49,438 nt of DNA from a virus, in IMG/VR virus record IMGVR_UViG_3300033153_005635, positions 1 through 49,438 of that record; one strand, 5' to 3'. Positions 24,072-38,984 of this stretch are shown one piece after another. The position numbers and the translations under genes were made by a program. The notes below the pieces were generated by a model. The model saw nothing but the letters and a program-made list of their open reading frames with translations, was not told the origin of the DNA and made no database searches. Position 1 is the stretch's first letter, and each line of letters begins with the position of its first letter.

Positions 24072-24479
24072 ATGGGAACAGCAACGACAAGTTTTTCAAG
24101 GTTTACAGGGCGCATTCATTGTGCGTCTAGTCCCCCAGCAAATCCAGCTACGGGAGATGAGTGGTTTGATACAGACACGAAGACGAAGTTTGTGTATAAT
24201 GGTAGTGCTTGGGTTGGTGGGACAGTATTGTCTACATCGACCTCGACCAGTACTTCAAGCACAAGCACGAGTACTTCGAGCACAAGTACGAGTACTTCTA
24301 CCAGTACTTCGACCTCGACCAGTACTTCGAGTACGAGTACTTCGAGCACGAGTACAAGTACATCAAGTACGAGTACAAGTACCTCGAGCACGAGTACTTC
24401 GAGTACGAGCACAAGTACATCAAGTACAAGTACATCAAGTACAAGTACATCAAGCACATCGACTTCGACCACCGAGTAG
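24072..24479 (+). CDS. Virion surface protein with Ser/Thr tract (81 residues of tract)
   Basis: 135 residues. Residues 1-53 form a small domain (SPPANPATGDEWFDTDTKTK, then VYNGSAWVGG) seen at the start of many phage fibre and collar proteins. From 24231 to 24473 nearly every codon is Ser or Thr. No other domain follows. It would present a flexible mucin-like arm on the head or collar. It has two shorter paralogues at 24841 and 25059. Confidence 0.75.
   Translation: MGTATTSFSRFTGRIHCASSPPANPATGDEWFDTDTKTKFVYNGSAWVGGTVLSTSTSTSTSSTSTSTSSTSTSTSTSTSTSTSTSSTSTSSTSTSTSSTSTSTSSTSTSSTSTSTSSTSTSSTSTSSTSTSTTE
24231..24473 (+). repeat. Ser/Thr-coding tract 1
   Basis: 81 consecutive codons, almost all Ser or Thr, mostly alternating TS with occasional SS. 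Both codon families of Ser (AGN and TCN) are mixed. Confidence 0.9.
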
Positions 24480-24840: not shown

Positions 24841-25053
24841 ATGGGAACCAACTTCACAGCAGTAAAGGGAAGGATTCCTTGTAGTTCGAGTCCTCCGTCG
24901 GGAGTGGCTAGGAATGGGGAAATGTGGTTCGATATTGACACGAAGCGTCAGGCTGTTTACTATGACGGTGCGTGGTATATGCAGGGGTCAGCAATGACCA
25001 CAAGTACAAGTACATCTAGTACGAGTACTTCGACATCGACATCGACGACATAA
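24841..25053 (+). CDS. Short Ser/Thr-tailed virion protein, paralogue 2
   Basis: 70 residues: the N-terminal WFDIDTKRQAVYYDGAWY domain shared with 24072 and 25059, then a tail of about 18 Ser/Thr residues. TAGGAGAAATT precedes the start. Probably assembles with its paralogues. Confidence 0.7.
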   Translation: MGTNFTAVKGRIPCSSSPPSGVARNGEMWFDIDTKRQAVYYDGAWYMQGSAMTTSTSTSSTSTSTSTSTT

Positions 25054-25058
25054 GTTAT

Positions 25059-25277
25059 ATGGCATACACACAAGGAACACACTTTTCTGATTATAGGGGT
25101 AAGATACCTGTTTCGGCGAGTCCGCCGACGACTGATGTACAGGATGGCGACCGTTGGTTTGATAGTGATACCAATAATGAGGGAGTTTACTACGATGGTC
25201 AGTGGTATATGACCTCGGCAATGACCACATCGACATCGACATCGACATCAACATCTACATCGACTTCGACAACATAG
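25059..25277 (+). CDS. Short Ser/Thr-tailed virion protein, paralogue 3
   Basis: 72 residues with DGDRWFDSDTNNEGVYYDGQ in the shared N-terminal domain and a C-terminal tail of about 17 Ser/Thr residues (TSTSTS pattern). It follows paralogue 2 by five bases. Tandem duplication is the simplest origin. Confidence 0.7.
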   Translation: MAYTQGTHFSDYRGKIPVSASPPTTDVQDGDRWFDSDTNNEGVYYDGQWYMTSAMTTSTSTSTSTSTSTSTT

Positions 25278-25661: not shown

Positions 25662-26987
25662 TTGAAAAAGAAAATAGCAATTTTTACAACTTTTAGTTCA
25701 GCTTCGCCAGCATATTCCCTCAACCGAGTTACCCAAGACCAGTTAAAAATGTTAGTAGATAACGGCTACGAGCCGAATGTTATCGTTGCTGAGGGTTTCA
25801 AGCCGATTGAGATGTACGCCCACGAGAAGGTAACGGTAAAAGAAATTCCTAATGTCCCCGTTTCCAATGAAGCCCGAATGGACAATACTTTCAATAAGGA
25901 TGTAATGATGATTGAGCAAGCCCTTACTGAGCACCTTAAGGGCGTTGATGTTTGTTTTACCCACGATATTATTTACCAAGCCGCCGCGTTGAAACACCAG
26001 ATTGCGGCTAAAAGGGTTGCCAAAACCTACCCAAACCTCCTATGGCTTCATTGGGTTCACTCGGCAACCCCCCCAGCCAGACTAGCCAACCTAACTCAAC
26101 ACTTCACAGACGAGTTTTCAAAGGAAATCCAAAGACCATTCCCCCACAGCTTTATTTGCTACCCGAACAAGTGGTTTGCTCCAGCAGTCGCCGACTCTTT
26201 TAACATAAACAGAAACAAAGTGAAGCACGTCCCCCACGCTACCGATTTCTGCCGCTTCAAGAAGTATGAGGAGGATACAATTAATCTAATCAAGAAAAAG
26301 AAGCTCTTGGAAGCAGACGCCATTGCCGTTTACCCAATTAGACTGGACAGGGGCAAGCAGGTTCAGTTCGTTCTCAAGGTAATGGCAATGCTCAAGACTC
26401 TCGGCAAAAGTGTTCGGGTCATTATCGTTGACTTCCACTCAACAGGCGGGGACAAAGTTATCTACCGAGACGACCTAAGGCAGATAGGGATTACTTGGGG
26501 GTTAGACGAGCGGGAGCTAACCTTTACCTCGGAGTTTCTACCCCAATGGCACCTAGAGGTTCCGTGGGAGGTAGTCTCCGACCTAATGGACTTGTCGAAC
26601 TGTTTTATATTCCCCTCGGCCTCGGAGAGCTACTCCCTAATTACTCAGGAGTCGGGGCTATCCAGACAGGTACAAGTCTTGAACTTTAATCTAACGCCTT
26701 TGATGAGTATTTTTGGAGAGTACCCCTACTACAAGAAGTTTGGGGAGGCGGCAGTTGACCCGCTAAATAATGAGGAGGCGGGGAATTGTGAAACTAAGTA
26801 CGATAACGAGCGGATGTTTATGCTCCAAGTCGCAGGACTCTTAAACTACGAATTGGAGAATAATCGGGTACTGGCTCAGGAACGGAAGCTAAGAAAGTAC
26901 AGGTCGCTGGATTATGTTTTTAAGACATACATCGAACCCCTTTTCTTCTACGAGGAATTAAAGAAGGAACCAATCGAGCAAAGATGA
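25662..26987 (+). CDS. GT4-like glycosyltransferase
   Basis: 441 residues, TTG start after GAAGGAGG. The N-terminal Rossmann half begins KKIAIFTTFSSASPAYSLNR and contains VDVCFTHDIIYQ and LWLHWVHS. The C-terminal half has VKHVPHATDF, AVYPIRLDRGKQVQ and FIFPSASESYSLITQESG, the donor-binding E-x7-E-type region of GT-B enzymes. It would transfer a sugar from an activated nucleotide donor in the cytoplasm. First gene of the modification cluster, four-base overlap with the next. Confidence 0.8.
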   Translation: MKKKIAIFTTFSSASPAYSLNRVTQDQLKMLVDNGYEPNVIVAEGFKPIEMYAHEKVTVKEIPNVPVSNEARMDNTFNKDVMMIEQALTEHLKGVDVCFTHDIIYQAAALKHQIAAKRVAKTYPNLLWLHWVHSATPPARLANLTQHFTDEFSKEIQRPFPHSFICYPNKWFAPAVADSFNINRNKVKHVPHATDFCRFKKYEEDTINLIKKKKLLEADAIAVYPIRLDRGKQVQFVLKVMAMLKTLGKSVRVIIVDFHSTGGDKVIYRDDLRQIGITWGLDERELTFTSEFLPQWHLEVPWEVVSDLMDLSNCFIFPSASESYSLITQESGLSRQVQVLNFNLTPLMSIFGEYPYYKKFGEAAVDPLNNEEAGNCETKYDNERMFMLQVAGLLNYELENNRVLAQERKLRKYRSLDYVFKTYIEPLFFYEELKKEPIEQR

Positions 26988-27769
26988 GAAAAATGGCTGA
27001 TGCTTGTATCATTGGCTACGGTGCTTTAGGAAAAAGAACTGCCAAAGTTTTTAACATTAAGAAGTACTACGATAGGGCGGGGTCGAATATAACCCTCAAA
27101 GACGCCGCCAAATGCCGTTTCATCTTTATCAGTCTTCCAACACCAACTATCAAAGAAGATTGTTTTACGGACGATATTGAGGCGATAGTCAAGCAACTCT
27201 CCCAGATTAGCCGAACCCCAATTCTAGTTATCAGGTCAACTGTCAAACCAGGGTTTACCAAGCACCTCTGTAGCAAGTATTTCGTTGAGGCAGTACACAA
27301 TCCTTCTTTTTCAGATGAAGGTAGGGGGGGTCTTGATATGGAGAAAGAGCCCGACCTTATCGTCATTGGGGGGGAGAATAAGCAGGTAGTTGCCGCAGTA
27401 GCCGACCTCTGGAAAGGCCGCTCAAAGACAGGAGAATTAACCCCAATGTTCTTGACAGACTCGGTTACATCAGAAACAATCAAGTATGTATTTAATGCCT
27501 TCTACGCACTCAAAGTAGTTTACTTCAATGAGATTTACGACATTTGCCAGAGGAACGGGGCTAGTTACAAGACTATCAGAGAAGCCATAAAGGAGAACAG
27601 TCGAATTGGAAACACCCACTCGTTGATTTTCCACAAGGGGGGTCGGGGGGCAGGTGGAAAATGTTTGAAAAAAGATTTAGAATTGTTTGCGTACTACACG
27701 GGGTCGAAACTGCTAAAGCGGGCAGTTACCATCAATCAAGGATTAATAGATGCCACTAATAAGAAGTAG
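26984..27769 (+). CDS. UDP-glucose/GDP-mannose dehydrogenase-like protein, short form
   Basis: 261 residues. NAD-binding start IIGYGALGKRTAK, FISLPTPT and RSTVKPG, a substrate helix region, and GAGGKCLKKD, which keeps the catalytic Cys and Lys of the family. The protein ends after the central helix (about 260 instead of 400 or more residues) and lacks the C-terminal UDP-binding domain. It may oxidise a nucleotide sugar to a uronate or be an altered enzyme. It overlaps both neighbours. Confidence 0.75.
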   Translation: MRKMADACIIGYGALGKRTAKVFNIKKYYDRAGSNITLKDAAKCRFIFISLPTPTIKEDCFTDDIEAIVKQLSQISRTPILVIRSTVKPGFTKHLCSKYFVEAVHNPSFSDEGRGGLDMEKEPDLIVIGGENKQVVAAVADLWKGRSKTGELTPMFLTDSVTSETIKYVFNAFYALKVVYFNEIYDICQRNGASYKTIREAIKENSRIGNTHSLIFHKGGRGAGGKCLKKDLELFAYYTGSKLLKRAVTINQGLIDATNKK

Positions 27770-29663
27770 TTTTTCCATTGTTATGCCGATTCACGGAGAC
27801 CGTGATGGCGAACGGGCACTCCGTAGCGTTTACTTCCAAAACTACCCACGAGATTTGGTAGAAACTATCGTTATCGAGGACGAGGATTCTCAACTTACTA
27901 AAAAGTACCCCGCCAGCAAGATTATCCACCACAAGGAAAGACTGGAGCGGGCTATCTCCCGAACTGAGGGGATGGCGGCGGCTACAAACGATTGGGTTAT
28001 ATGGCTTGATAGTATAACCGCCGAGAGAAGAATACCCGTAAAGATAGATGGCCGTATGGATGTTCTCTCTATTGAGGAGCTCTTTAATTTATATCCCTAT
28101 TCTCATTTTAACGGGAAAGAGGTTTGTTATCCAACGGACTTGGAGACCCTTAGTTTAGCTTCTAAACAGGATGATTATTGGAAAGTCCCTGCCTTTTGGA
28201 CTAAGGTAACAAAAATTATTCGTCATAGAACGGACAAGAATGTTTACAGGGTAACTCAGAAGTATGGACAGGTTGAGGTAACGGAAGACCACTCTTTAGT
28301 CAAATTAGAGGGGGGAGAGCTAGTCAAGTCTAAGTGGTATGAAACTGTTGATAATCCATTCGTGACCGTTGGCGGGGTAGAACGGGGTAAATTAGAGTCC
28401 ATAGACCTATGGGAGTACCTGTCTGAGGTTTCTGGGCTTATATCCGATGAAAAGACCGTTCGTTTTGATAACCATCAAAGGGGACAGGACAAAATCTTTC
28501 TAAAGCGACAGTTAGGTGGAGATTCTCTGCTTTCGCTCTGCCGAATCTTAGGACTTTACATTTCGGAGGGGTCGGTTTCAAAACGCCCGAAGAGTAAGAA
28601 CTTCGATATAGCACTTCAGGAAAAGGAAATTCTTCAGGGAATTGAAAAGGATTTTCAGGAACTTACCAACGCTACCTTTTCTTACTGTGCCGATAAGAAG
28701 GGGACATACGCCACCGTTTGGCGGTTGCGTAATTATTCTAACTTGCTCACGGCGGCTTTTCCCTATCTGTGCGGGAAGGACAGTAGAAGTAAGAAAATTC
28801 CGCAGTTTATTTACAATCTTGATAAGAAATACCAAGCGGAGTTCTTGAAATATCTTGTTATTGGGGATGGTTCGAGGAAAAAGGGAAGTGCTCCCGATGG
28901 TGGTAAGAGGAGTAAGAAGTTCCTCAAAAACTATTTTGTCTACACAACGGTTTCGTTGGGTTTGGCCAGCGGCCTGTGCTTTTTGTTACGGCAACTTGGG
29001 ATAGATTTCTCCGTTGGTTATAGAGAGTCCAAAAAGAGTTGGGGTATTAGTACCAGGCCGCTTAAGACGAACAGGCGGGGGTTTAAGACATTTATCTCTC
29101 CTTTAGAGAAGGCAAGTAGGTATGTATATGACCTTTCGGTGGAGTCTGACTCGCATACATTTGTTGATAGCCTCGGTTTGGTAGCTCTCCATAATTCAGA
29201 TGACGAGCTTATCTCCTCAACTCTCTACAACCTCGACTACTGGATTAGAAGGTGTCCTGGCTACAAAATCTTTCACTACGGGGGAATTGTTTACTGGGAA
29301 CCTAAGACTTTCGATGAACACAACTACGAACCGAGAACGACCATTAGACCAACCCCCGATATTCCTGATGGGGAGCCGGGGATGGGGTACTTTGAAACGG
29401 GTAAGGTAGCAACTGGACACTTCGTCTTTAGAAGGGAAATCTTTGAGGAGTTAGGCGGTATGCCCCAGCAGATGAGCCCCTATGTTTTCGCTGACGAATG
29501 TGCCAGAGAATTTCCTGAGTTTAGGGAGATGATGGGTCGGAGAAAGGTTGATACACTGGGAAATCCTTGGGGTTGCGACTTCTTTTATTTTTACAAAATC
29601 ACACGCAAATACAAATCCAAAGCATTGCCACTTAATCTATATTTACAACATGTTAGGAGGTGA
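27750..29663 (+). CDS. GT2 glycosyltransferase interrupted by an intein
   Basis: 637 residues as translated; 242 after removal of intein residues 88-482. The extein begins FSIVMPIHGDRDGERALRSV, the GT-A opening of family 2. The joined sequence reads IWLD-SDDELISS, restoring the DxDD metal/nucleotide-sugar motif split by the intein. The remainder includes ETGKVATGHFVFRREIFEE, the usual acceptor-side region. Activity thus needs splicing. It overlaps the preceding gene by 20 bases within the modification operon. Confidence 0.85.
   Translation: MPLIRSSFSIVMPIHGDRDGERALRSVYFQNYPRDLVETIVIEDEDSQLTKKYPASKIIHHKERLERAISRTEGMAAATNDWVIWLDSITAERRIPVKIDGRMDVLSIEELFNLYPYSHFNGKEVCYPTDLETLSLASKQDDYWKVPAFWTKVTKIIRHRTDKNVYRVTQKYGQVEVTEDHSLVKLEGGELVKSKWYETVDNPFVTVGGVERGKLESIDLWEYLSEVSGLISDEKTVRFDNHQRGQDKIFLKRQLGGDSLLSLCRILGLYISEGSVSKRPKSKNFDIALQEKEILQGIEKDFQELTNATFSYCADKKGTYATVWRLRNYSNLLTAAFPYLCGKDSRSKKIPQFIYNLDKKYQAEFLKYLVIGDGSRKKGSAPDGGKRSKKFLKNYFVYTTVSLGLASGLCFLLRQLGIDFSVGYRESKKSWGISTRPLKTNRRGFKTFISPLEKASRYVYDLSVESDSHTFVDSLGLVALHNSDDELISSTLYNLDYWIRRCPGYKIFHYGGIVYWEPKTFDEHNYEPRTTIRPTPDIPDGEPGMGYFETGKVATGHFVFRREIFEELGGMPQQMSPYVFADECAREFPEFREMMGRRKVDTLGNPWGCDFFYFYKITRKYKSKALPLNLYLQHVRR
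28011..29195 (+). mobile_element. LAGLIDADG intein in the GT2 active site
   Basis: 395 codons. The first residue is Ser88. VTEDHSLV (177-184) holds the TxxH motif of the splicing domain. The endonuclease motifs are LCRILGLYISEG (263-274) and FLKYLVIGDG (365-374). The end has VYDLSVE...HTFV...LVALHN, with penultimate His, terminal Asn and Ser as first C-extein residue. All residues for self-splicing are present and the acidic endonuclease residues look intact. Confidence 0.92.
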
Positions 29664-29667
29664 GTGT

Positions 29668-29886
29668 ATGGCTAAAAGAAAAGATGTATTACCAAAAGTT
29701 TGTTCTCGGTGTGGAAACGATTTAATGACGGGACAGACGACTATCCATTTACCGTTTGAGAAGAGGTATCTTGTCTTGTGTGGGGTTTGTCATCGTGGCT
29801 TGGGTTTTCCAGTCGGGCTCTACGGCGGGAAGTCCCCAACTGCTGAGGAATGGAAAAAGTTTTGGGATGAGGAGGTTAAGAAGTGA
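29668..29886 (+). CDS. Small zinc-ribbon protein in the modification cluster
   Basis: 72 residues from ATG 29668 with TAGGAGGTGAG upstream. CSRCG and CGVC form a four-Cys zinc site; the C-terminus is charged. It overlaps the next gene (GTGA). Role unknown. Confidence 0.7.
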   Translation: MAKRKDVLPKVCSRCGNDLMTGQTTIHLPFEKRYLVLCGVCHRGLGFPVGLYGGKSPTAEEWKKFWDEEVKK

Positions 29887-30638
29887 ACCTACGAGAGAAA
29901 AAGGGCAATCCAATCAATACATTTATCGTGCCCTTCGTATTTCCCGATTATATTGAGGGGTGTGTTAAGAGTATCTGGGAACATTGCGACCCAGAAAAGC
30001 ACCGACTAATCTTAATCGACAATACCGAAAAGGGTGAACTCTACCCCAAACTCCAAGACAGGGCACATCTCTACATTCGTTCCTACAGAAACCTTGGTTG
30101 TTCCAAGTCTTGGAATATGGGGATTCACCTCTCAAAAACGAAATACTGGTCGATTATGGGAGACGATACGAGGATTATTCACGAGAACTGGTGGCCAGAA
30201 TTACAAGCACATATGGAAGCAAATGATATGAAAATTGGTTTCTGTGACCCCTGCCACCTAACCCAACCAGAGAAGGTCAGGGGGAATTTGGAACCACCTG
30301 AGTTTACCGAGGAGATGTGGGAGGAAACTAAACATAATAGCGGCGATATGGCAGGTAGGTTTAACTGTCTGGTCATCAGAAAAGACCTCTACCATACTTT
30401 AGCTTACCAAGACGAGGATGGGCACTTTCTCTTAAACGAGGATTTGTATCCTTGCTACTGGGTTGACCGAGATTTTCATTTCAGGATGAAGGAATTGGAC
30501 ATTCACAAGAGCGGACTAAAGTTTCCTGTTTGGCATATGAGAGCAATGACGACCCAATCAGGTAAAATGCCACTACACGACAAAGGCCCGACCAATCCCG
30601 ATGTCGCCGAATGTCCAAAGGTTAGAAGATGTCTATGA
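29883..30638 (+). CDS. GT2-like glycosyltransferase
   Basis: 251 residues, GTG start with GAGGAGG upstream. NTFIVPFVFPDYIEGCVKSI opens the GT-A fold, LILIDNTEKG follows, and YWSIMGDDTRI carries the acidic metal motif. WVDRDFHFRM lies in the acceptor half. Probable sugar transfer to the virion or to an activated acceptor. Coupled to its neighbours by short overlaps. Confidence 0.78.
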   Translation: MNLREKKGNPINTFIVPFVFPDYIEGCVKSIWEHCDPEKHRLILIDNTEKGELYPKLQDRAHLYIRSYRNLGCSKSWNMGIHLSKTKYWSIMGDDTRIIHENWWPELQAHMEANDMKIGFCDPCHLTQPEKVRGNLEPPEFTEEMWEETKHNSGDMAGRFNCLVIRKDLYHTLAYQDEDGHFLLNEDLYPCYWVDRDFHFRMKELDIHKSGLKFPVWHMRAMTTQSGKMPLHDKGPTNPDVAECPKVRRCL

Positions 30639-31096
30639 CACCCGAAGAAGACCTAAAAGTACTAGAAGAAGCGGCTTCCAAGATTAAAAACGGGGTAATC
30701 GTGGAGACGGGGACTTGTGCTGGAGAATCAGCCAACCGAATGGCTAAAGCGTCCCCAACCTCAACGGTACACACAATCGACATCAGAAGCCGTGACCCAA
30801 AGCTGGAGAAGAATGTTCTTTCTTATATTGGAGACTCAAAGGAGATAGTAAAACGCTGGAAAACGCCGATTGACCTGCTTTTCATCGATGGCGGCCACGA
30901 CTACGAAACGGTCGAATCCGACTTCCTCGGTTTCGGGAGATGGGTGAGACCCGGAAGTAAGGTATTCTTCCACGATTACGATAGCGGTAGGAACGCTGAT
31001 GTTACTAGATTTATTAACGACGCTATCGAGTTTTACCAAGACTTTAAGCCATTAGGAGCAATGGGTAAGATGTTGTTTGCTTTTGAGGCATTGTAG
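30629..31096 (+). CDS. SAM-dependent methyltransferase (class I, Methyltransf_24 type)
   Basis: 155 residues. IVETGTCAGESANRMAK is motif I (SAM loop), TVHTIDIRSRD motif II, and IDLLFIDGGHDYETVESDF the family-typical IDGGH motif with catalytic-type residues. Such enzymes often methylate sugars or small molecules. The start ATG lies 10 bases inside the preceding gene. Confidence 0.8.
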   Translation: MSMTPEEDLKVLEEAASKIKNGVIVETGTCAGESANRMAKASPTSTVHTIDIRSRDPKLEKNVLSYIGDSKEIVKRWKTPIDLLFIDGGHDYETVESDFLGFGRWVRPGSKVFFHDYDSGRNADVTRFINDAIEFYQDFKPLGAMGKMLFAFEAL

Positions 31097-31107
31097 GGGG
31101 TGGGTTA

Positions 31108-31323
31108 ATGAAAAAGGATAGTACCTTTACTATTGAAATAAAGCTAATCGATAACAGAACTGGTAAGGAATATGCCAACGGAACTAAGGTTAGTCGTCGA
31201 ATGTTAGCTGACTTGGGAAGTGAGGAGGCTGGTAAATATATCCTCCGAAAGATTGATATATTAGAGAAGGGATTGCTTAACAGATTGGCTAAGATTCTTG
31301 AGGAGGAAAATGAAACCGACTGA
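31108..31323 (+). CDS. Hypothetical 71-residue protein in the modification cluster
   Basis: Starts with a beta strand (STFTIEIKLIDNRTG) and ends in a charged helix (DILEKGLLNRLAKILEEENE). The start follows AGGGGGTGGG. It overlaps the next gene by 14 bases. Function unknown. Confidence 0.6.
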   Translation: MKKDSTFTIEIKLIDNRTGKEYANGTKVSRRMLADLGSEEAGKYILRKIDILEKGLLNRLAKILEEENETD

Positions 31324-32071
31324 TATACTCTTGACTTCATATTATCGCCCTATCTTTACCCAGAAGACTCTGGAGTCGATTGAGGAGCGAACCAAGTCGC
31401 CGTACCGCCTAATCGTGGTCGATAACGGCTCCGATGAACGCCAGAAGGAAATGCTCTGGAATTATGTGAAGCGGGGGGTTATCAAAGTCCTCATTTTACT
31501 AGACCGTAACTACGGATTGGAGTACGCCAAGAACACGGGGTTGAGGTTTGTAGAATCCACACCCTACTTTGTAAACACCGATAACGACCTCTTGATTGAA
31601 GCCCCGTCAAACGGGACTGATTGGCTCCAGAAGATGGTTTCCTTAATGGACAGACATCCCGACTACGGAGCTATTTCCGCTCGACCCCAAGCCCTGTTAG
31701 GAGTCCCCAACCTATTCACTAAAGATAGGGAAATCGGACAATTCTATGTTTGTGGGGGGAGCTATCGTATTATGAGGACAGATATTGTGAAGAAGTATAA
31801 ATGGCGGGATGAGTGGAACGATTCGAGGAGTGAGGAGTGGAGAATCTGCGGGGAAATCCTGCGGGAAGGATTAAAAACGGGCTATGCTAGGGATGTAAGG
31901 TGCTACCACCTTTTCGGGAAATCTAACTGGGGTTATCGGGACAATGTTGAGCATTACCACCAAGCTAGGGACTTTGGAGACCCACAGGATATTGATTATG
32001 ACCCAGCAACCTGTATTCCTAAATCTGAGCAGTACCCTCTTTTAGAAAAGTTTGAGGACAGGACATTTTAA
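31310..32071 (+). CDS. GT2 glycosyltransferase
   Basis: 253 residues from ATG 31310 with GAGGAGG upstream. DILLTSYYRPIFTQKTLESI opens the GT-A fold, LIVVDNGSDERQ is the donor region, RNYGLEYAKNTGL and FVNTDNDLLI provide the DxD-like motif. Cytoplasmic sugar transferase; the stop overlaps the next ATG (TAATG). Confidence 0.85.
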   Translation: MKPTDILLTSYYRPIFTQKTLESIEERTKSPYRLIVVDNGSDERQKEMLWNYVKRGVIKVLILLDRNYGLEYAKNTGLRFVESTPYFVNTDNDLLIEAPSNGTDWLQKMVSLMDRHPDYGAISARPQALLGVPNLFTKDREIGQFYVCGGSYRIMRTDIVKKYKWRDEWNDSRSEEWRICGEILREGLKTGYARDVRCYHLFGKSNWGYRDNVEHYHQARDFGDPQDIDYDPATCIPKSEQYPLLEKFEDRTF

Positions 32072-32976
32072 TGCTGACAGTTTTAATTCCGACATTGGCA
32101 TCCAAGAAAACCAAGCCGTATGTCGAGGCGTGTGTGGCCTCCTTGAGAGAGTTTACTTCCAAGATTAGTATCTTAGTACTAGTCAATGGTAAAAACGCAC
32201 TAGACCTCAATGTAGACGCTAGGGTGATAAAAATACCCCAACAGGGACAGTGCCACGCCGTAAATGAGGGACTAGAAATGACCAACACTAAATATGTGAT
32301 GGTTTCCAACGATGATATGATTTACAGCCCCGATTGGTTGCCGTTTTTACTCAAAGCGGTTGAGGAACACAAATGCGTTTCCCCGAACCTCGTAGAACCA
32401 CTATCAGGAGCCGAACCCTTCAAAATCCACAATTGTGGAGAAACGGTGGATAAGTTTAGAAGAGACGCTTGGCTCCAGTTTGTTTCCCAGAACCACGGGG
32501 ACGAGGGAATTGAGGATGGCTTTAATCTTCCCTTCCTGACCGAAACCGAAATCTTCAAAACGATTGGTGGTTACGATGAAGCCTACGACCCTTTCGGTAG
32601 CAACTCCGACCCCGATGTAATGTACAAGATGATGATTGCTGGTATCAGACCCAAACGGGTTCGGGACAGCTATGTTTATCACTTCTCCCTCCAGAGCAGT
32701 AGTCCTGCCGAGAGTGAGGAAGCTAAAAAGAGCTGGTGGACTAACTGGCGCTATTTCCCCAGAAAGTGGGGATTTGAGCGGGACGGGCGGGGTAATATCT
32801 GGTATGCTGGGGGAAAGAAGGGAACGAGAATTCCGACTGAGGAAAGACCCTATGTAGCCGAAATAGCTCACGGGCACGGGGTTCATCCGGGGAAGGATTG
32901 GCTGGAATTTCATCCTTCTTGGAAAGGGAAGTACGGAAAGCCGTTCTATGGAGAGGGTAATTACTATGACGACTAA
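32071..32976 (+). CDS. GT2 glycosyltransferase
   Basis: 301 residues. The opening LTVLIPTLASKK, the donor strand ISILVLVNGKN, and YVMVSNDDMIYS with the acidic motif match family 2. NLPFLTETEIFKTIGGYDEA is the conserved acceptor-side segment before FGSNSDPD. The C-terminus contains WRYFPRKWG. One of five GT2-type genes here. Confidence 0.85.
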   Translation: MLTVLIPTLASKKTKPYVEACVASLREFTSKISILVLVNGKNALDLNVDARVIKIPQQGQCHAVNEGLEMTNTKYVMVSNDDMIYSPDWLPFLLKAVEEHKCVSPNLVEPLSGAEPFKIHNCGETVDKFRRDAWLQFVSQNHGDEGIEDGFNLPFLTETEIFKTIGGYDEAYDPFGSNSDPDVMYKMMIAGIRPKRVRDSYVYHFSLQSSSPAESEEAKKSWWTNWRYFPRKWGFERDGRGNIWYAGGKKGTRIPTEERPYVAEIAHGHGVHPGKDWLEFHPSWKGKYGKPFYGEGNYYDD

Positions 32977-33529
32977 ACGGGAGTCACAGTCTATTGGGGA
33001 ACTCTATAAGCAGCTCCAGCAGTATGGAGACCGATCCCAGACCCAACGGGATATGGAAATTCTCTGGGAAGCTACCAAAGACGCTAAGGTCTATGTAGAA
33101 ATAGGAACGATGTACGGCATTTCTGCCTTTGTAGTTTGGGCAGGCAATCCCGAGTGTTCGATTTCCTGTTACGATATTAAGGACTACCCCGAACGACAGG
33201 AACTACACAAAGATACCCCAATTAACTTCTACCAGCAGAAATCCCCAGAATGTGCTCGTGGTTGGATTCATCCTATTGATGTTTTATTGCTGGACGGTTG
33301 CCACGACTATCAGGATGTCTTGGAGGACTTTGCGGCTTGGTCGCCGTACTTGAAAGAAGGGGGGAGCATCCTTTTCCACGACTACTCACATTCCTCACCT
33401 GGAGTAAGGCAGTTTTGCGAGAAGTTTATTATTGGACATTCGGGCTGGAGGGTAAAACACTATCCCGAGGATATTGTTAGTTGTGATACATCTTACCTTT
33501 GGGCAGTCAAGAAAATAGGCATCAAATGA
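32966..33529 (+). CDS. SAM-dependent methyltransferase (Methyltransf_24-like)
   Basis: 187 residues from ATG 32966 (GGAGAGGG upstream). VYVEIGTMYGISAFVVW is a SAM loop, IDVLLLDGCHDYQDVLEDF the D-G-x-H motif as in the gene at 30629, and SILFHDYSHSSPGV the later strand. Likely an O-methyltransferase for sugars. Start within the preceding gene, stop overlapping the next ATG. Confidence 0.8.
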   Translation: MTTKRESQSIGELYKQLQQYGDRSQTQRDMEILWEATKDAKVYVEIGTMYGISAFVVWAGNPECSISCYDIKDYPERQELHKDTPINFYQQKSPECARGWIHPIDVLLLDGCHDYQDVLEDFAAWSPYLKEGGSILFHDYSHSSPGVRQFCEKFIIGHSGWRVKHYPEDIVSCDTSYLWAVKKIGIK

Positions 33530-34107
33530 GTAAGTATTGGGAACATCGTAAATACCATCGGGGTGACAATAAGAGTAGAGAACGGCTGTATGACTACATC
33601 GACCCTGGAGAGAGTGTACTAGATGTCGGGTGCGGTTCGGGGTGGGTCTATGAGAACTTCCAGAACAAAGATATTCCCATTGATTACAAGGGGGTTGACC
33701 TTACTAGAAACTTTATTGAGGGGGCTAAAATTGACTTTCCAGAAGCCGAGTGGGAAGTTCAGAACGCTGAAAAGCTAAAGGAAAAAGATAACTCTTGGGA
33801 TGTCGTGCTACTTTACCATATTCTAGAGCTTTGCCCCCGTTGGCAGAAAGCAGTCGAGGAAGCCATACGGGTAGCTAAGAAAAGGGTTATCATTAACTTC
33901 TGGCACGGTTGGACACAGTACGATGTTAAACAGGTTACAAAGTATGATGACGAGGACAACTACGATTACCTTGAGGAGAAGAATTCCAACTGGATTGGGG
34001 AAAACGAGATTAGGGAGTTTATGAAGTCACACGGTTTTCCCGAAGAACCAACCGAGACGATTAGAATGTTTCCCAGCACATTTCATTACTATGTTATCGA
34101 ATTATGA
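33526..34107 (+). CDS. Class I SAM methyltransferase
   Basis: 193 residues from ATG 33526 (ATGA overlap). ESVLDVGCGSGWVYENF is motif I, KGVDLTRNFIEGA motif II, WDVVLLYHILELC motif IV and VAKKRVIINFWHG the following strand. Methyltransf_11/25-type fold. Probably modifies the glycan made by the neighbouring transferases. Confidence 0.82.
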   Translation: MSKYWEHRKYHRGDNKSRERLYDYIDPGESVLDVGCGSGWVYENFQNKDIPIDYKGVDLTRNFIEGAKIDFPEAEWEVQNAEKLKEKDNSWDVVLLYHILELCPRWQKAVEEAIRVAKKRVIINFWHGWTQYDVKQVTKYDDEDNYDYLEEKNSNWIGENEIREFMKSHGFPEEPTETIRMFPSTFHYYVIEL

Positions 34108-34715
34108 GTAAAGCAGGAACGAGGGTGGGTCATTTTATAAACCAGCTCATTGTTGATACCCAGATAATCAATGGGGGCTTAAATCATCCAGCAGTACCAG
34201 AGACCCCGATTACCAGTTGGTTGGATGTGGGTGGGGGAAACGGAATTGCCTCGACAACAATGGACTTAAACTTCAAGGTTTTCCACGACAGTAATGGACA
34301 GAGGAAAGTCTGTGTTGACCCAAAGGGCTGGGAGTCTGGTCGGGACTGGAAGATAATTAGGGAACTCTACAATGAAGATTGTAGTGTTTGGAATGACCAT
34401 TTCGATGTGGTTTCTTGCTTGGACACGATTGAGCACCTACCGAAAGAAGAAGGAGAAAAGTGGCTTGACCATTTCGAGGAGGTTGCTGACAGGTTAATCA
34501 TCATCTTTACTCCCGATGGGTTTCTACCACAAGGCCCAGAGCAAGACCCTGAGAAGTTTGACGAGCTGGAGAAACATCGTTCAGGTTGGTGTGCCGAGGA
34601 TTTCCTTAAAAGGGGGTACTGTGTTTACCGAACCCCCAAAGACTTCCACCACAACCCGACGGGGGTTATCGGTGACTGGTCAGCTTTACTATGTTGGCGA
34701 AACAAGGCGATATAA
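34104..34715 (+). CDS. Class I SAM methyltransferase-like protein
   Basis: 203 residues. SWLDVGGGNGIASTTM is motif I, then VCVDPKGWESG, FDVVSCLDTIEHLPKEEGEK motif IV and ADRLIIIFTPDGF. The final part differs from neighbours. Four-base overlap with the previous gene and 25-base overlap with the next. Confidence 0.78.
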   Translation: MSKAGTRVGHFINQLIVDTQIINGGLNHPAVPETPITSWLDVGGGNGIASTTMDLNFKVFHDSNGQRKVCVDPKGWESGRDWKIIRELYNEDCSVWNDHFDVVSCLDTIEHLPKEEGEKWLDHFEEVADRLIIIFTPDGFLPQGPEQDPEKFDELEKHRSGWCAEDFLKRGYCVYRTPKDFHHNPTGVIGDWSALLCWRNKAI

Positions 34716-35308
34716 CCAACAACTATTTTGAGAAAGAGTTTGGAAAGTCGAGACCCGACCTCTTCTGTCGGACAGGACTGAATAGTCCCCACGAGCCGTG
34801 GCGGATAGACTTTACTAACTATGTGGAAGATGGGGATAGTTTTCTGGATGTCGGCTGTGGTAGCGGGGCGGATTACGAGATACTGGAACGAGTGGGACGA
34901 AAGGTACGCTACAAGGGAGTTGATTACTCACCATCGTTACTAGAAGGAGCCAAAACGCTCTGTCCCGAAGGAGAATTTGAGGTTCAAGACATCAACAATC
35001 TCACGGAGGAAGATGGCTCGTGGGATGTTGTTAACTGTCGCCACGCTGTTGCCCATTGTGAGTATTACGAGCAGCCAATTAAGGAGCTGGTTAGGGTAGC
35101 CAAGAAACGGGTAATTCTGACTATCCACACACCATTCCCCAAAAATGGTATAGACAATATCCACCCTAACCCCCCGTACAGTTGGAGAAACCTGTATGCG
35201 AAGGAAAAGTTCCTAAAGTTTCTCGGGGGATTGCCCGTTAGAAGACTTGCCTTCAAAGAAAATCATTGTGGTAGTGCCGAAACCTTTATCGTTTTAGAAA
35301 AGCTATGA
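34691..35308 (+). CDS. Class I SAM methyltransferase
   Basis: 205 residues. DSFLDVGCGSGADYEIL is motif I, RYKGVDYSPSLLEGA motif II, SWDVVNCRHAVAHCEYYEQP motif IV and VRVAKKRVILTI the next strand. It is similar in layout to the 33526 protein, suggesting duplication. Four-base overlap with the next gene. Confidence 0.82.
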   Translation: MLAKQGDITNNYFEKEFGKSRPDLFCRTGLNSPHEPWRIDFTNYVEDGDSFLDVGCGSGADYEILERVGRKVRYKGVDYSPSLLEGAKTLCPEGEFEVQDINNLTEEDGSWDVVNCRHAVAHCEYYEQPIKELVRVAKKRVILTIHTPFPKNGIDNIHPNPPYSWRNLYAKEKFLKFLGGLPVRRLAFKENHCGSAETFIVLEKL

Positions 35309-36411
35309 AGTTCTTGTGTCTGGGAAATTTTTGGAAATGCGGCAGTGAGCAGGCAGATGAAATAAATATCTGTGATGTACTCGAACGGGAAGGTCATACT
35401 ACTATCCGCTATAACAGGTTCGAGATACCCAAGATATTCGGGGAGGAAGCTAAAAGTCCAACAGGGCATACTTTAACTCCCGAAGAAGAAGAAGCCAAGA
35501 GAAAGAGTGCTTCCGAAGCTGATGTTATCCTAACTTGGAAGGGTGGGGAGTTTACTCCAGAGGTTATCAAAAGATTAAGAGAATTGTGTCCTGACAAACC
35601 TATTTACTTCATTCAGCACGACCTGATGGAAGCCAACATTAGCTCAACGGCGACAATGGAGCAGAGGAGTCCCGCTTCCTTACCAACCCAGCACATTCAA
35701 CAAGCTAGAGACTGCGACGCCTACTTCTCCAAGGAAATTGGCTGGAGGAAAGACTACGAGAAAGAGGGAGTCAATTTTATCTACTGGCCAGAGGACGCCT
35801 GCCCCGACTTTTACGAGAAGGTTGATACGACTACCGAGGATTACCAGCACAAGTGCCAGATTTTGGAACTAACTAGAGAGTACCCTGTGGTCTTTACAGG
35901 AACTTGGTCAGATATGGGTATTAACCGTGCCGAGTACCTAAAACCAATCCGAGACGCCCTAGATTTAACAATCTTTTCTCTTAACCCCGATGCTTGGCAG
36001 GAGCGGGGCTACAAAGCACAATCAGGAATGTGGGACGACAACTATGCCTATTTGGTCAGCAAAGCTAAGATAAACTTAGCTCTGGACTGGCGACACGACA
36101 TTGAGGGCTATTGGAGTGATAGAATAGCCCAAATCCTTGGGGCTGGGGGCTTCGTCCTCGCCAAGTACACCCTTGGGATGGAGCGGGCCTTCGGTCCCGA
36201 CAAGGAGAATCTGGTTTACTGGACAGACCAACTAGACTTTATTGAGAAAGCTAAGTACTATCTGGAACACGAGGATGAACGATTAAGGATTGCTAAACGG
36301 GGTCACGAGTACTGTGAGAAATATCTCAAGTTTGATTATCGAGTAAGACAGTTTCTAACTATTTTGAGGTACCAGTTCGGGATTGGGGGTGTCAATAATG
36401 GCATTAAATAA
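35305..36411 (+). CDS. CgeB-like glycosyltransferase
   Basis: 368 residues. The N-terminal half begins MKFLCLGNFWKCGSEQADEI and contains a Rossmann-type region (ADVILTWKGGEF, then PIYFIQHD). The C-terminal half carries INLALDWRHDIEGYWSDRIA, ILGAGGFVLAKYTLGMERAF and RIAKRGHEYCEKYLKFDYRV, typical of the glycosyltransferase 1_2 domain of spore maturation CgeB proteins. Cytoplasmic GT-B enzyme. Confidence 0.8.
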   Translation: MKFLCLGNFWKCGSEQADEINICDVLEREGHTTIRYNRFEIPKIFGEEAKSPTGHTLTPEEEEAKRKSASEADVILTWKGGEFTPEVIKRLRELCPDKPIYFIQHDLMEANISSTATMEQRSPASLPTQHIQQARDCDAYFSKEIGWRKDYEKEGVNFIYWPEDACPDFYEKVDTTTEDYQHKCQILELTREYPVVFTGTWSDMGINRAEYLKPIRDALDLTIFSLNPDAWQERGYKAQSGMWDDNYAYLVSKAKINLALDWRHDIEGYWSDRIAQILGAGGFVLAKYTLGMERAFGPDKENLVYWTDQLDFIEKAKYYLEHEDERLRIAKRGHEYCEKYLKFDYRVRQFLTILRYQFGIGGVNNGIK

Positions 36412-36622
36412 AACCTACTGGCGCAGGATGGCTTACTATCTAAGTACTCGTAAAGAGAGGAGAGAACTGTTTGGTAAGCCAATTGATGAGCTTTTCTTCA
36501 AAAAGCACAACAGGGAGCAAAAGCGAATGGAAACCTGCCAACACGAGTGGGGAGAGTGGGACAACGATGTACAATGTTGTTTAAAGTGTGATAATCGGCG
36601 AATAAGGGGGCTAAAGCTGTGA
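36398..36622 (+). CDS. Small zinc-binding protein in the modification cluster
   Basis: 74 residues from ATG 36398. The basic N-terminus is followed by CQHEW and, after DVQCC, LKCDN, giving Cys/His pairs for a small zinc ribbon. It overlaps both neighbours. Function unknown. Confidence 0.6.
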   Translation: MALNKTYWRRMAYYLSTRKERRELFGKPIDELFFKKHNREQKRMETCQHEWGEWDNDVQCCLKCDNRRIRGLKL

Positions 36623-37593
36623 AAATTTTCATCGCAGACGTGGAAAACGGTCGCTTTAGTCACTATATGCGAGACCATTGGAGAGACCTCGGCCACGAGG
36701 TAATCCAGCAGGGTGGGTATAGTCCAGAAAAAGCTGACTGGGCAGATTTAATCTACATCGAGTGGACAGACCTTAACATCCAATTAGCCAGCAAGCAGAT
36801 TTGGTTTGACAAGACCCCCCACGAGCCATTCGACAGACCAATCAAAGACAGAAACAAGAAGAAGCTGGTCAACCGAATGATTGACATTGATATGTGGGCG
36901 GGACACGGTGGAGGAGTGAACTGGGCGGGGGTAGATGATTTAATCTTCATTGCTCCCCACATCCAGAGGTTAGCCAACCAACGCTTTGCCGAGCAAGGAA
37001 TTAGGGAATGTAAACAGCATTTGATAAGACCAGGAGTTGACCTAGACAAGTGGACATTCAGGAAGAAACGGGCCGACAAGGTAAAGAACATTGGCTTTAT
37101 CGGGGAACTCTGGGAGAATAAGGGGATTGACCGAGCTATCAGGATTCTGATTCAGCTAGTTAGACAATCGAATACTAACTGGCGGCTTCATCTTAGAGGA
37201 ACTTGGCCTAACAGTAACTACTTCTACCACTACAACCAGAACTTGATAGACGCTTGTGGAGTTAGGGAGTTGATTACCTTCTATCCCGACAGGGTAGAGG
37301 ATTTGAACGCTTGGTATGAAAATATGGACTATATGCTCTGTGCTTCTATTAAAGAGGCATTTAGTTATGTTACGGCCGAAGCAATGGCTAAGGGTATTAA
37401 ACCAGTCATCCACAGGTTTTACGGGGCTGAGGCCATCTGGGACGAGCGCTACCTGTTTTCGACTGAATCGGAGGCAGTAGAATCGTTTCTAAGCGAGGAT
37501 TATAATCCAGAGGAGTATCGGGCTTACATTGAGAAACACTACGACCAGAAGCGAATGTTGAAAGAAATGGACAAAGTTTGTGATGTATCCTAA
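36619..37593 (+). CDS. GT4-like glycosyltransferase
   Basis: 324 residues, GTG start (GTGA overlap). The short N-terminal domain contains HYMRDHWRDLGHEVIQQ and ADLIYIEWTD. The C-terminal half has HLIRPGVDLDKW, KNIGFIGELWENKGIDRAI and YMLCASIKEAFSYVTAEAMA with the donor-binding Glu pair. GT-B fold, retaining family 4 type. Confidence 0.82.
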   Translation: MKIFIADVENGRFSHYMRDHWRDLGHEVIQQGGYSPEKADWADLIYIEWTDLNIQLASKQIWFDKTPHEPFDRPIKDRNKKKLVNRMIDIDMWAGHGGGVNWAGVDDLIFIAPHIQRLANQRFAEQGIRECKQHLIRPGVDLDKWTFRKKRADKVKNIGFIGELWENKGIDRAIRILIQLVRQSNTNWRLHLRGTWPNSNYFYHYNQNLIDACGVRELITFYPDRVEDLNAWYENMDYMLCASIKEAFSYVTAEAMAKGIKPVIHRFYGAEAIWDERYLFSTESEAVESFLSEDYNPEEYRAYIEKHYDQKRMLKEMDKVCDVS

Positions 37594-38341
37594 CCTACCT
37601 AACAAACCGAAAGACGCAGTAGTAGATTTTGACGACCACCAGATGACCCTCAATAACGGGAGGGTTGGAGATTTGTCTCTGGCTTACCTGTTTTACCTGA
37701 AACACCTATTCCCCAAGTTCAAAGCTACCCTGTTTGCCATTCCCGCTAGATGCTCTCCCCATATTCTCAAGGAGATTAACAAGCTGGGTTGGATAGAGTT
37801 AGCAGTACACGGTTGGGAACACAACGATAACTACGAGTGTTCCAAGTGGACAAAAGAAGAATGTTTGATGAACCTTAGTAAGGTAGAGACTCAATTTGGG
37901 GACATATTCGTCAAAGGCTTCAAAGCTCCTGGATGGCAGATTTCGGATGGCTGTTATGAAGCACTACTCCAAGCAGGGTACTGGGTAGCCGACCACGTTT
38001 ACAACGACAACCGCAGACCGAAAGAGCTGCCTGTCTATAAGTTAGACCACCCGTGGTGTATCCACGGACATACTTGGGACATTCAAGGAGTTCCACTAGA
38101 CCAGCAGAACGGAATTAGACAGATGATTGAGGAACGGGGATTGTGTGAGAAACTAACTCAAGAAACAAATTTCCATTTCATTTCAGAAATTATCGGAAAG
38201 GAGGTTAATGCTCAAGACATTCGTAATCCCGTTGATACGCCCATCGTTCATCAAGAGGAACCTAGAAACCCTGTGGAAGTACAACGACAGGGAAACGACA
38301 CGCGTGATCGTGGTGGATCAATCGCTCCGTGGAATCTCTAA
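37583..38341 (+). CDS. NodB-type polysaccharide deacetylase-like protein
   Basis: 252 residues from ATG 37583. VVDFDDHQ corresponds to motif 1 (Asp-Asp), ELAVHGWEHND to motif 2 (HxxxH zinc ligands) and KGFKAPGWQI to motif 3 of CE4 enzymes. It would remove acetyl groups from amino sugars or act on a related substrate. The last 45 residues after KEVNAQ overlap the next gene and look like its sequence read out of frame, so the natural end was probably near 38205. Confidence 0.75.
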   Translation: MYPNLPNKPKDAVVDFDDHQMTLNNGRVGDLSLAYLFYLKHLFPKFKATLFAIPARCSPHILKEINKLGWIELAVHGWEHNDNYECSKWTKEECLMNLSKVETQFGDIFVKGFKAPGWQISDGCYEALLQAGYWVADHVYNDNRRPKELPVYKLDHPWCIHGHTWDIQGVPLDQQNGIRQMIEERGLCEKLTQETNFHFISEIIGKEVNAQDIRNPVDTPIVHQEEPRNPVEVQRQGNDTRDRGGSIAPWNL

Positions 38342-38984
38342 GGACTTACACGACAAGATAGATTTACTGCTTAGACCCCGATTTAACCTTGGCTTTTCCA
38401 AGAGTATGAATGAGGGGATTATCCACGCAATGTATTGGGGGAGTGATTATGTTATTTGTGCTAATGACGACATCGAGTTTATTCACCAAGACTGGTGGAG
38501 AGGGATTTTAGAAACCTTCGAGAAGTACAAGACGGCGATGGTCGTCAATCCCTCCTCGATAGCTGACCGTAACGCCGAGCCGAGGATACCGTACAAGGAG
38601 GAATATACTACCGAGGAGTATTTTAGTCTCATTCAAGGCGGCAAAGGGTCGGTGCTGGACGGTATTTGTATGTGGTGTCCTGTCTTTCCTAGAGAAACGA
38701 TTGAAAAGATAGGTTTGTTTGACGAGCGGTTCTTCCCCGGAGGTGGGGAGGATTATGACTACAATGCGAGGGTTTACAAGGCAGGCGGTAGGTGTTTGGG
38801 AACAAGTCTGTCTTGGGTACTTCACCATTGGGGACAGAGTAAGGATGTTGCTGGAGCAGTTCAGGAAGCCCTACCACCTCACCAGAAGCCGTGGAACGAC
38901 TTAAACGCTCTCTGGCCTGCTGGATTCGATATTTATCACCCCAAAGGAGAGAGAGACCCCGAAGTCCGTAAAATCCCCATCTAA
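38208..38984 (+). CDS. GT2 glycosyltransferase
   Basis: 258 residues from ATG 38208 with AAAGGAGGTTA upstream. FVIPLIRPSFIKRNLETLWK opens the GT-A fold, then RVIVVDQSLRG, LGFSKSMNEGI and YVICANDDIEF with the acidic motif; GLFDERFFPGGGEDYDYNAR is the acceptor-side ED motif. It starts 134 bases before the end of the deacetylase frame. Last gene of the cluster, before a promoter. Confidence 0.85.
   Translation: MLKTFVIPLIRPSFIKRNLETLWKYNDRETTRVIVVDQSLRGISKDLHDKIDLLLRPRFNLGFSKSMNEGIIHAMYWGSDYVICANDDIEFIHQDWWRGILETFEKYKTAMVVNPSSIADRNAEPRIPYKEEYTTEEYFSLIQGGKGSVLDGICMWCPVFPRETIEKIGLFDERFFPGGGEDYDYNARVYKAGGRCLGTSLSWVLHHWGQSKDVAGAVQEALPPHQKPWNDLNALWPAGFDIYHPKGERDPEVRKIPI

Follow-up and report, generated by a model that had tools for sequence, protein, structure and literature searches.

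This locus raises the question of what a stretch of 395 residues is doing within the metal-binding motif of a viral glycosyltransferase, and whether it is a working intein, a regulatory switch, a dead element or not an intein at all. The window, that is the whole stretch of DNA that was analysed, comprises 49,438 nucleotides (positions 1 to 49,438 of the IMG/VR virus record IMGVR_UViG_3300033153_005635), and the features discussed below are collected in Table 1. An earlier note on this DNA had described the gene as a phage glycosyltransferase of GT2 type split by an intein; the assignment to GT2 stands, while for the virus the wording tailed dsDNA virus is the one that fits.

Table 1. Features of the interrupted glycosyltransferase gene and its upstream neighbours (positions in the window)
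Feature	Position	Strand	Remark
GT1-like glycosyltransferase gene	25662..26987	+	Conserved upstream neighbour; served to fetch relatives
UDP-glucose/GDP-mannose dehydrogenase-like gene	26984..27769	+	Directly upstream
Precursor ORF, GT2 glycosyltransferase interrupted by intein	27750..29663	+	637 aa
N-extein	27750..28010	+	87 aa, ending ...WVIWLD, the first Asp of the DxD motif
Intein	28011..29195	+	395 aa, Ser1 to His394-Asn395
Block A	28011..28031	+	Ser1, SITAERR
Strand with Glu45	28140..28157	+	LETLSL; possible partner of Arg in the NX motif (PolB16: Glu43); motif definition PMC10189870
NX motif	28221..28238	+	Arg71-His72 (RHRTDK), signature of Ser1/Ser+1 inteins; PMC10189870
Block B / N3	28278..28295	+	Thr91-Glu-Asp-His94 (TEDH)
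Block C, first LAGLIDADG motif	28548..28571	+	LGLYISEG, acidic Glu186
Candidate block D	28791..28808	+	KKIPQF, candidate Lys
Block E, second LAGLIDADG motif	28854..28871	+	LVIGDG, Asp286
Block F	29124..29141	+	VYDLSV, Asp374
End of block G	29190..29195	+	His394-Asn395, then Ser+1 of the C-extein
C-extein	29196..29660	+	155 aa, SDDE at start, completes the DSDD motif

The insert runs from codon 88 (Ser, 28011) to codon 482 (Asn, 29195) of the ORF 27750-29663 and is followed by a Ser, and these are exactly the limits and the length (28011-29195, 395 aa) that had been proposed. It is flanked by ...NDWVIWLD and SDDELISS..., which when joined read WLDSDDE, the D-x-D-D motif of GT2 glycosyltransferases. 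The reading frame is open over 637 codons, and the downstream extein is kept without a stop. Removal of the 395 residues leaves a predicted spliced product of 242 aa, as the earlier note had calculated. In the precursor the GT2 profile (PF00535) is matched over positions 1-87 only (E 1.7e-6), and once the insert is removed the match extends over 1-166 of 168 (E 6.1e-11), so that excision restores the profile match and the proposed split of the D/SDD motif is borne out.

Every splicing residue is in place, namely Ser1, TEDH, Asp374, the terminal His-Asn, Ser+1 and the Arg-His pair of the NX motif, and the two dodecapeptide motifs of the endonuclease both keep their acidic residue (Glu186 and Asp286), in agreement with the description of a full-length intein (Ser1, TxxH, two LAGLIDADG motifs, HN/S end) from which we started. 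According to Pasch et al., the NX motif consists of a critical His after an Arg or Lys, and its conservation is confined to inteins that have Ser1 together with Ser/Thr+1 (PMC10189870). Arg71-His72 lies at the position expected for this motif and Glu45, in the strand region ahead of it, corresponds to Glu43 of PolB16, which gives independent support for a functional splicing centre and for oxyester chemistry. Judged by these residues, the element is a class-1 Ser1/Ser+1 LAGLIDADG intein, and with both nuclease residues intact homing by its endonuclease is plausible.

Profile and structure searches point in the same direction. The insert matched the Pfam family LAGLIDADG_3 (PF14528) above the cut-off (E 3.8e-8), and the NCBIfam model of the intein C-terminal region (TIGR01443) with scores of 15.9-17.2 against a cut-off of 15.6. 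Intein_splicing (PF14890) was matched over the whole insert (E 3.3e-7) with 30.7 bits, just under its cut-off of 35.8, and the model of the intein N-terminal region (TIGR01445) reached 19.0 of the 24.5 required; the splicing domain is therefore divergent. The best match among PDB structures was PI-PkoII (E 1.1e-9), the polymerase intein of Thermococcus kodakarensis, with block B, the nuclease and the C-terminal block all covered by the match. A single-sequence AlphaFold model of the intein alone had a pLDDT of 33 and is of no use for judging the Hint fold. Taken at the level of sequence, the insert at 28011-29195 can be regarded as confirmed to be a genuine full-length intein and not a chance resemblance, and what lies inside the active-site motif of this viral GT2 enzyme is a real element that is probably competent for splicing.

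The splicing-domain scores near or below the cut-offs could also be read as decay, in which case the intein would have lost the ability to splice, the glycosyltransferase gene would be inactivated and its protein would be a dead precursor. This we consider improbable, since the catalytic residues of both the splicing and the nuclease domains are all intact and the frame has stayed open through the C-extein.

What the gene looks like without the element could be seen in related viruses. Profiles of the neighbouring GT1 protein and of the major capsid protein retrieved over 50 loci from related tailed viruses in IMG/VR. In 21 distinct loci the same GT1 gene is followed downstream by a homologue of the extein that lacks the intein, mostly with the UDP-sugar dehydrogenase gene in between. 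The D-x-D-D motif is contiguous in all 21, as read directly in the alignment of the homologue sequences themselves, and its second position is Ser in ten, Ala in seven, Asp in three and Gly in one (counted from the alignment). The nearest homologue, L019, has 61% identity over 131 residues and its empty site is NDWIIWLDSDDE, with WLDSDDE contiguous. A GT2 gene at the corresponding place in L017 was left out as its homology was insufficient. Single-sequence scans of IMG/VR and GTDB gave no close relatives of the extein, and a GTDB scan with a profile of the extein family yielded nothing but common GT2 enzymes of low identity.

An AlphaFold model of the homologue L031 (pLDDT 89) had as its best PDB matches GT2 structures of GT-A fold, including SpsA, and places the D-x-D-D motif in a loop following a strand. 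Both Asp residues of DxD and the next Asp (D99, D101 and D102 in L031 numbering) make up three of the just six invariant columns of the family, and the intein thus sits where the enzyme varies least. It was claimed in the earlier note that splicing is needed to generate the active site: splicing would indeed rebuild the motif, and it is very likely required for glycosyltransferase activity, with the precursor presumably inactive.

A precursor that lacks a complete metal site could in principle have its activity gated by splicing, and conditional splicing, responding to temperature, redox state or the stage of infection, would then time the activation of the glycosyltransferase. The earlier note had gone this way in suggesting that the intein could control when virion glycosylation sets in, a suggestion that we do not retain and to which we give very little weight. 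Redox control of splicing rests on a catalytic Cys and is established for Cys inteins, whereas the Ser1/Ser+1 chemistry found here has no such residue. The intein is present in only one of the 22 genes of the extein family examined, and in none of the 21 homologues, so that the family does not need it. Moreover, parasitic inteins as a rule sit in the most conserved catalytic motif of their host protein (PMC2814812), and such a position is no sign of a switch.

As the sequence comes from a single IMG/VR contig, an assembly chimera was also considered; it is very unlikely, because the insert both begins and ends exactly at the codon boundary that restores D-SDD, in frame and with matching intein ends, and because its G+C content (0.43) is close to that of its flanks (0.48 and 0.45). 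No support was found for reading the 395 residues as a common insertion or accessory domain within the glycosyltransferase, a reading practically dismissed by the comparison with intein-free homologues that the earlier note had advised, in none of which they form a normal GT domain and in all of which they are absent, and by the fact that they match inteins and endonucleases and not GT domains.

We therefore hold with high confidence that the insert is a canonical class-1 Ser1/Ser+1 oxyester intein with a two-motif LAGLIDADG endonuclease, which interrupts the DxD(D) motif after its first Asp, directly ahead of the Ser, and is probably maintained by selfish homing. The gene would be translated as a single precursor of 637 aa, from which the intein would excise itself through an N-O acyl shift at Ser1, transesterification to Ser+1, cyclisation of Asn395 and an O-N shift, ligating WLD to SDDE and yielding the glycosyltransferase of 242 aa with its metal site intact. 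During co-infection the endonuclease would cleave sites that lack the intein, into which the element would then be copied, so that its persistence is best put down to selfish homing at the position of the gene that tolerates mutation least. The intein is thus best explained as an ordinary selfish element in an unusual host gene, and homing accounts for all of the observations.

As to its relatives, no close copy was found in IMG/VR, in phage records or in the related loci, and the element was found as a single copy. Single-sequence scans of IMG/VR and of a part of GTDB likewise gave no close relatives of the intein, and the eight matches to the junction pattern HN/[ST]DD[DE] across IMG/VR included no intein. 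Weak relatives, besides the KP13-7 intein treated below, are an intein in the ribonucleotide reductase of a huge phage (25% identity with 84% of the query covered) and a helicase intein of a haloarchaeal plasmid. Class-1 inteins of the Ser1/Ser+1(Thr+1) type, such as PI-PkoII (PI-TkoII) and PolB16 OarG (PMC10189870), share with the GT2 intein Ser1, Ser+1, the Arg-His NX motif, TxxH and the His-Asn end, and PI-PkoII shares the LAGLIDADG nuclease as well; their hosts are DNA polymerase B genes and not a glycosyltransferase, and the identity is low.

In the phage collection the closest N-terminal splicing domain is that of the split PolB intein of Klebsiella phage KP13-7 (OP617745), with 28% identity over 105 aa. 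It has the same Ser1, the RH of the NX motif, a TxDH motif (TSDH in KP13-7) and the terminal HN, and both inteins interrupt a metal-binding D-x-D, at YGD/TDS in KP13-7 and at LD/SDD here. The KP13-7 element differs in its polymerase extein, in the Thr at +1 and in being split over separate ORFs. In the record of this phage (L007, OP617745, 838-5610) the DNA polymerase B is split at YGD/TDS and the intein halves are annotated as hypothetical proteins. The shared residues and the interruption of a D/TD motif suggest a possible jump between look-alike D/[ST]D motifs, by which a Ser1-type allele such as that of KP13-7 would have passed by ectopic homing from the D/[ST]D motif of a PolB gene into the D/SD of GT2. 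We regard this origin as rather unlikely; if true, a convergent metal-binding sequence would have steered the element from one protein family into another, and a new intein site would have arisen in sugar-transferase genes.

The earlier note had called a glycosyltransferase an unusual host for an intein, which holds for viruses and is overstated beyond them. Chitin synthases are members of GT family 2. Four inteins have been described in chitin synthases (CHS) of fungi, so that a host of the GT2 family is common to them and to the viral intein, although the fungal ones lie in eukaryotic nuclear genes and cluster with GLT inteins (PMC5784728). The open literature gave us no report of an intein at a DxD motif or in any glycosyltransferase of viruses or prokaryotes, subscription papers and intein databases being outside the search. 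The element is thus a new allele of a known kind of intein, with a GT2-family precedent in fungi.

Inteins are also present in the large terminase subunit (TerL) of viruses of the same group (L153, L154, L155 and L002). These begin with Cys1, occupy other sites, in TerL, and show at best weak local similarity to the GT2 intein; their occurrence in several related viruses indicates that the virus group is exposed to inteins in general. At least three TerL sites are occupied by Cys1 inteins, one after VIG, one after a sequence of EFN/EFS type and one in the KHDDT/CDALAY nuclease motif. L153, L154 and L155 are records of L022, L048 and L070, and L154 has two inteins in one TerL gene. The TerL of the window (496 aa) has no intein. 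A genome-level search with PF14890 detected inteins in at least three of 44 relatives, a search which missed the intein of the window itself. Of 285 Omnitrophota genomes, 31 (L161-L175 among the loci) match the GT2 intein, mostly in the nuclease region; those of the Omnitrophota inteins that were inspected reside in genes resembling SMC, GyrB and radical-SAM genes, among others, and no glycosyltransferase was recognised among their hosts.

The interrupted gene belongs to a cluster that comprises genes for GT1, GT2, dehydrogenase and methyltransferase proteins and is flanked by capsid and tail-region genes, and virion proteins are a possible target of the GT2 modification. Further downstream (29883-38984) the region of virion genes is densely interspersed with GT2, GT1-like, methyltransferase and polysaccharide-deacetylase-like genes. 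Immediately after the capsid gene three small proteins (24072-24479, 24841-25053 and 25059-25277) end in pure Ser/Thr runs of 81, 18 and 17 residues, respectively. A Ser/Thr run of 30-160 residues between the capsid gene and the GT1 gene is present in 40 of the 40 related loci that hold both genes, some of these loci being overlapping pieces of one contig. The proteins with these runs may serve the glycosyltransferases encoded nearby as mucin-like acceptors.

The GT2 intein leaves the understanding of how inteins work unchanged, and with its Ser1/Ser+1 chemistry it may be useful as a thiol-independent splicing tool. One occupied site and 21 empty ones, about half of which have the Ser needed for splicing, make a clean case for the entry of inteins into new host genes. 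Moreover, the range of proteins that host inteins is extended to the sugar-decoration genes of viruses.
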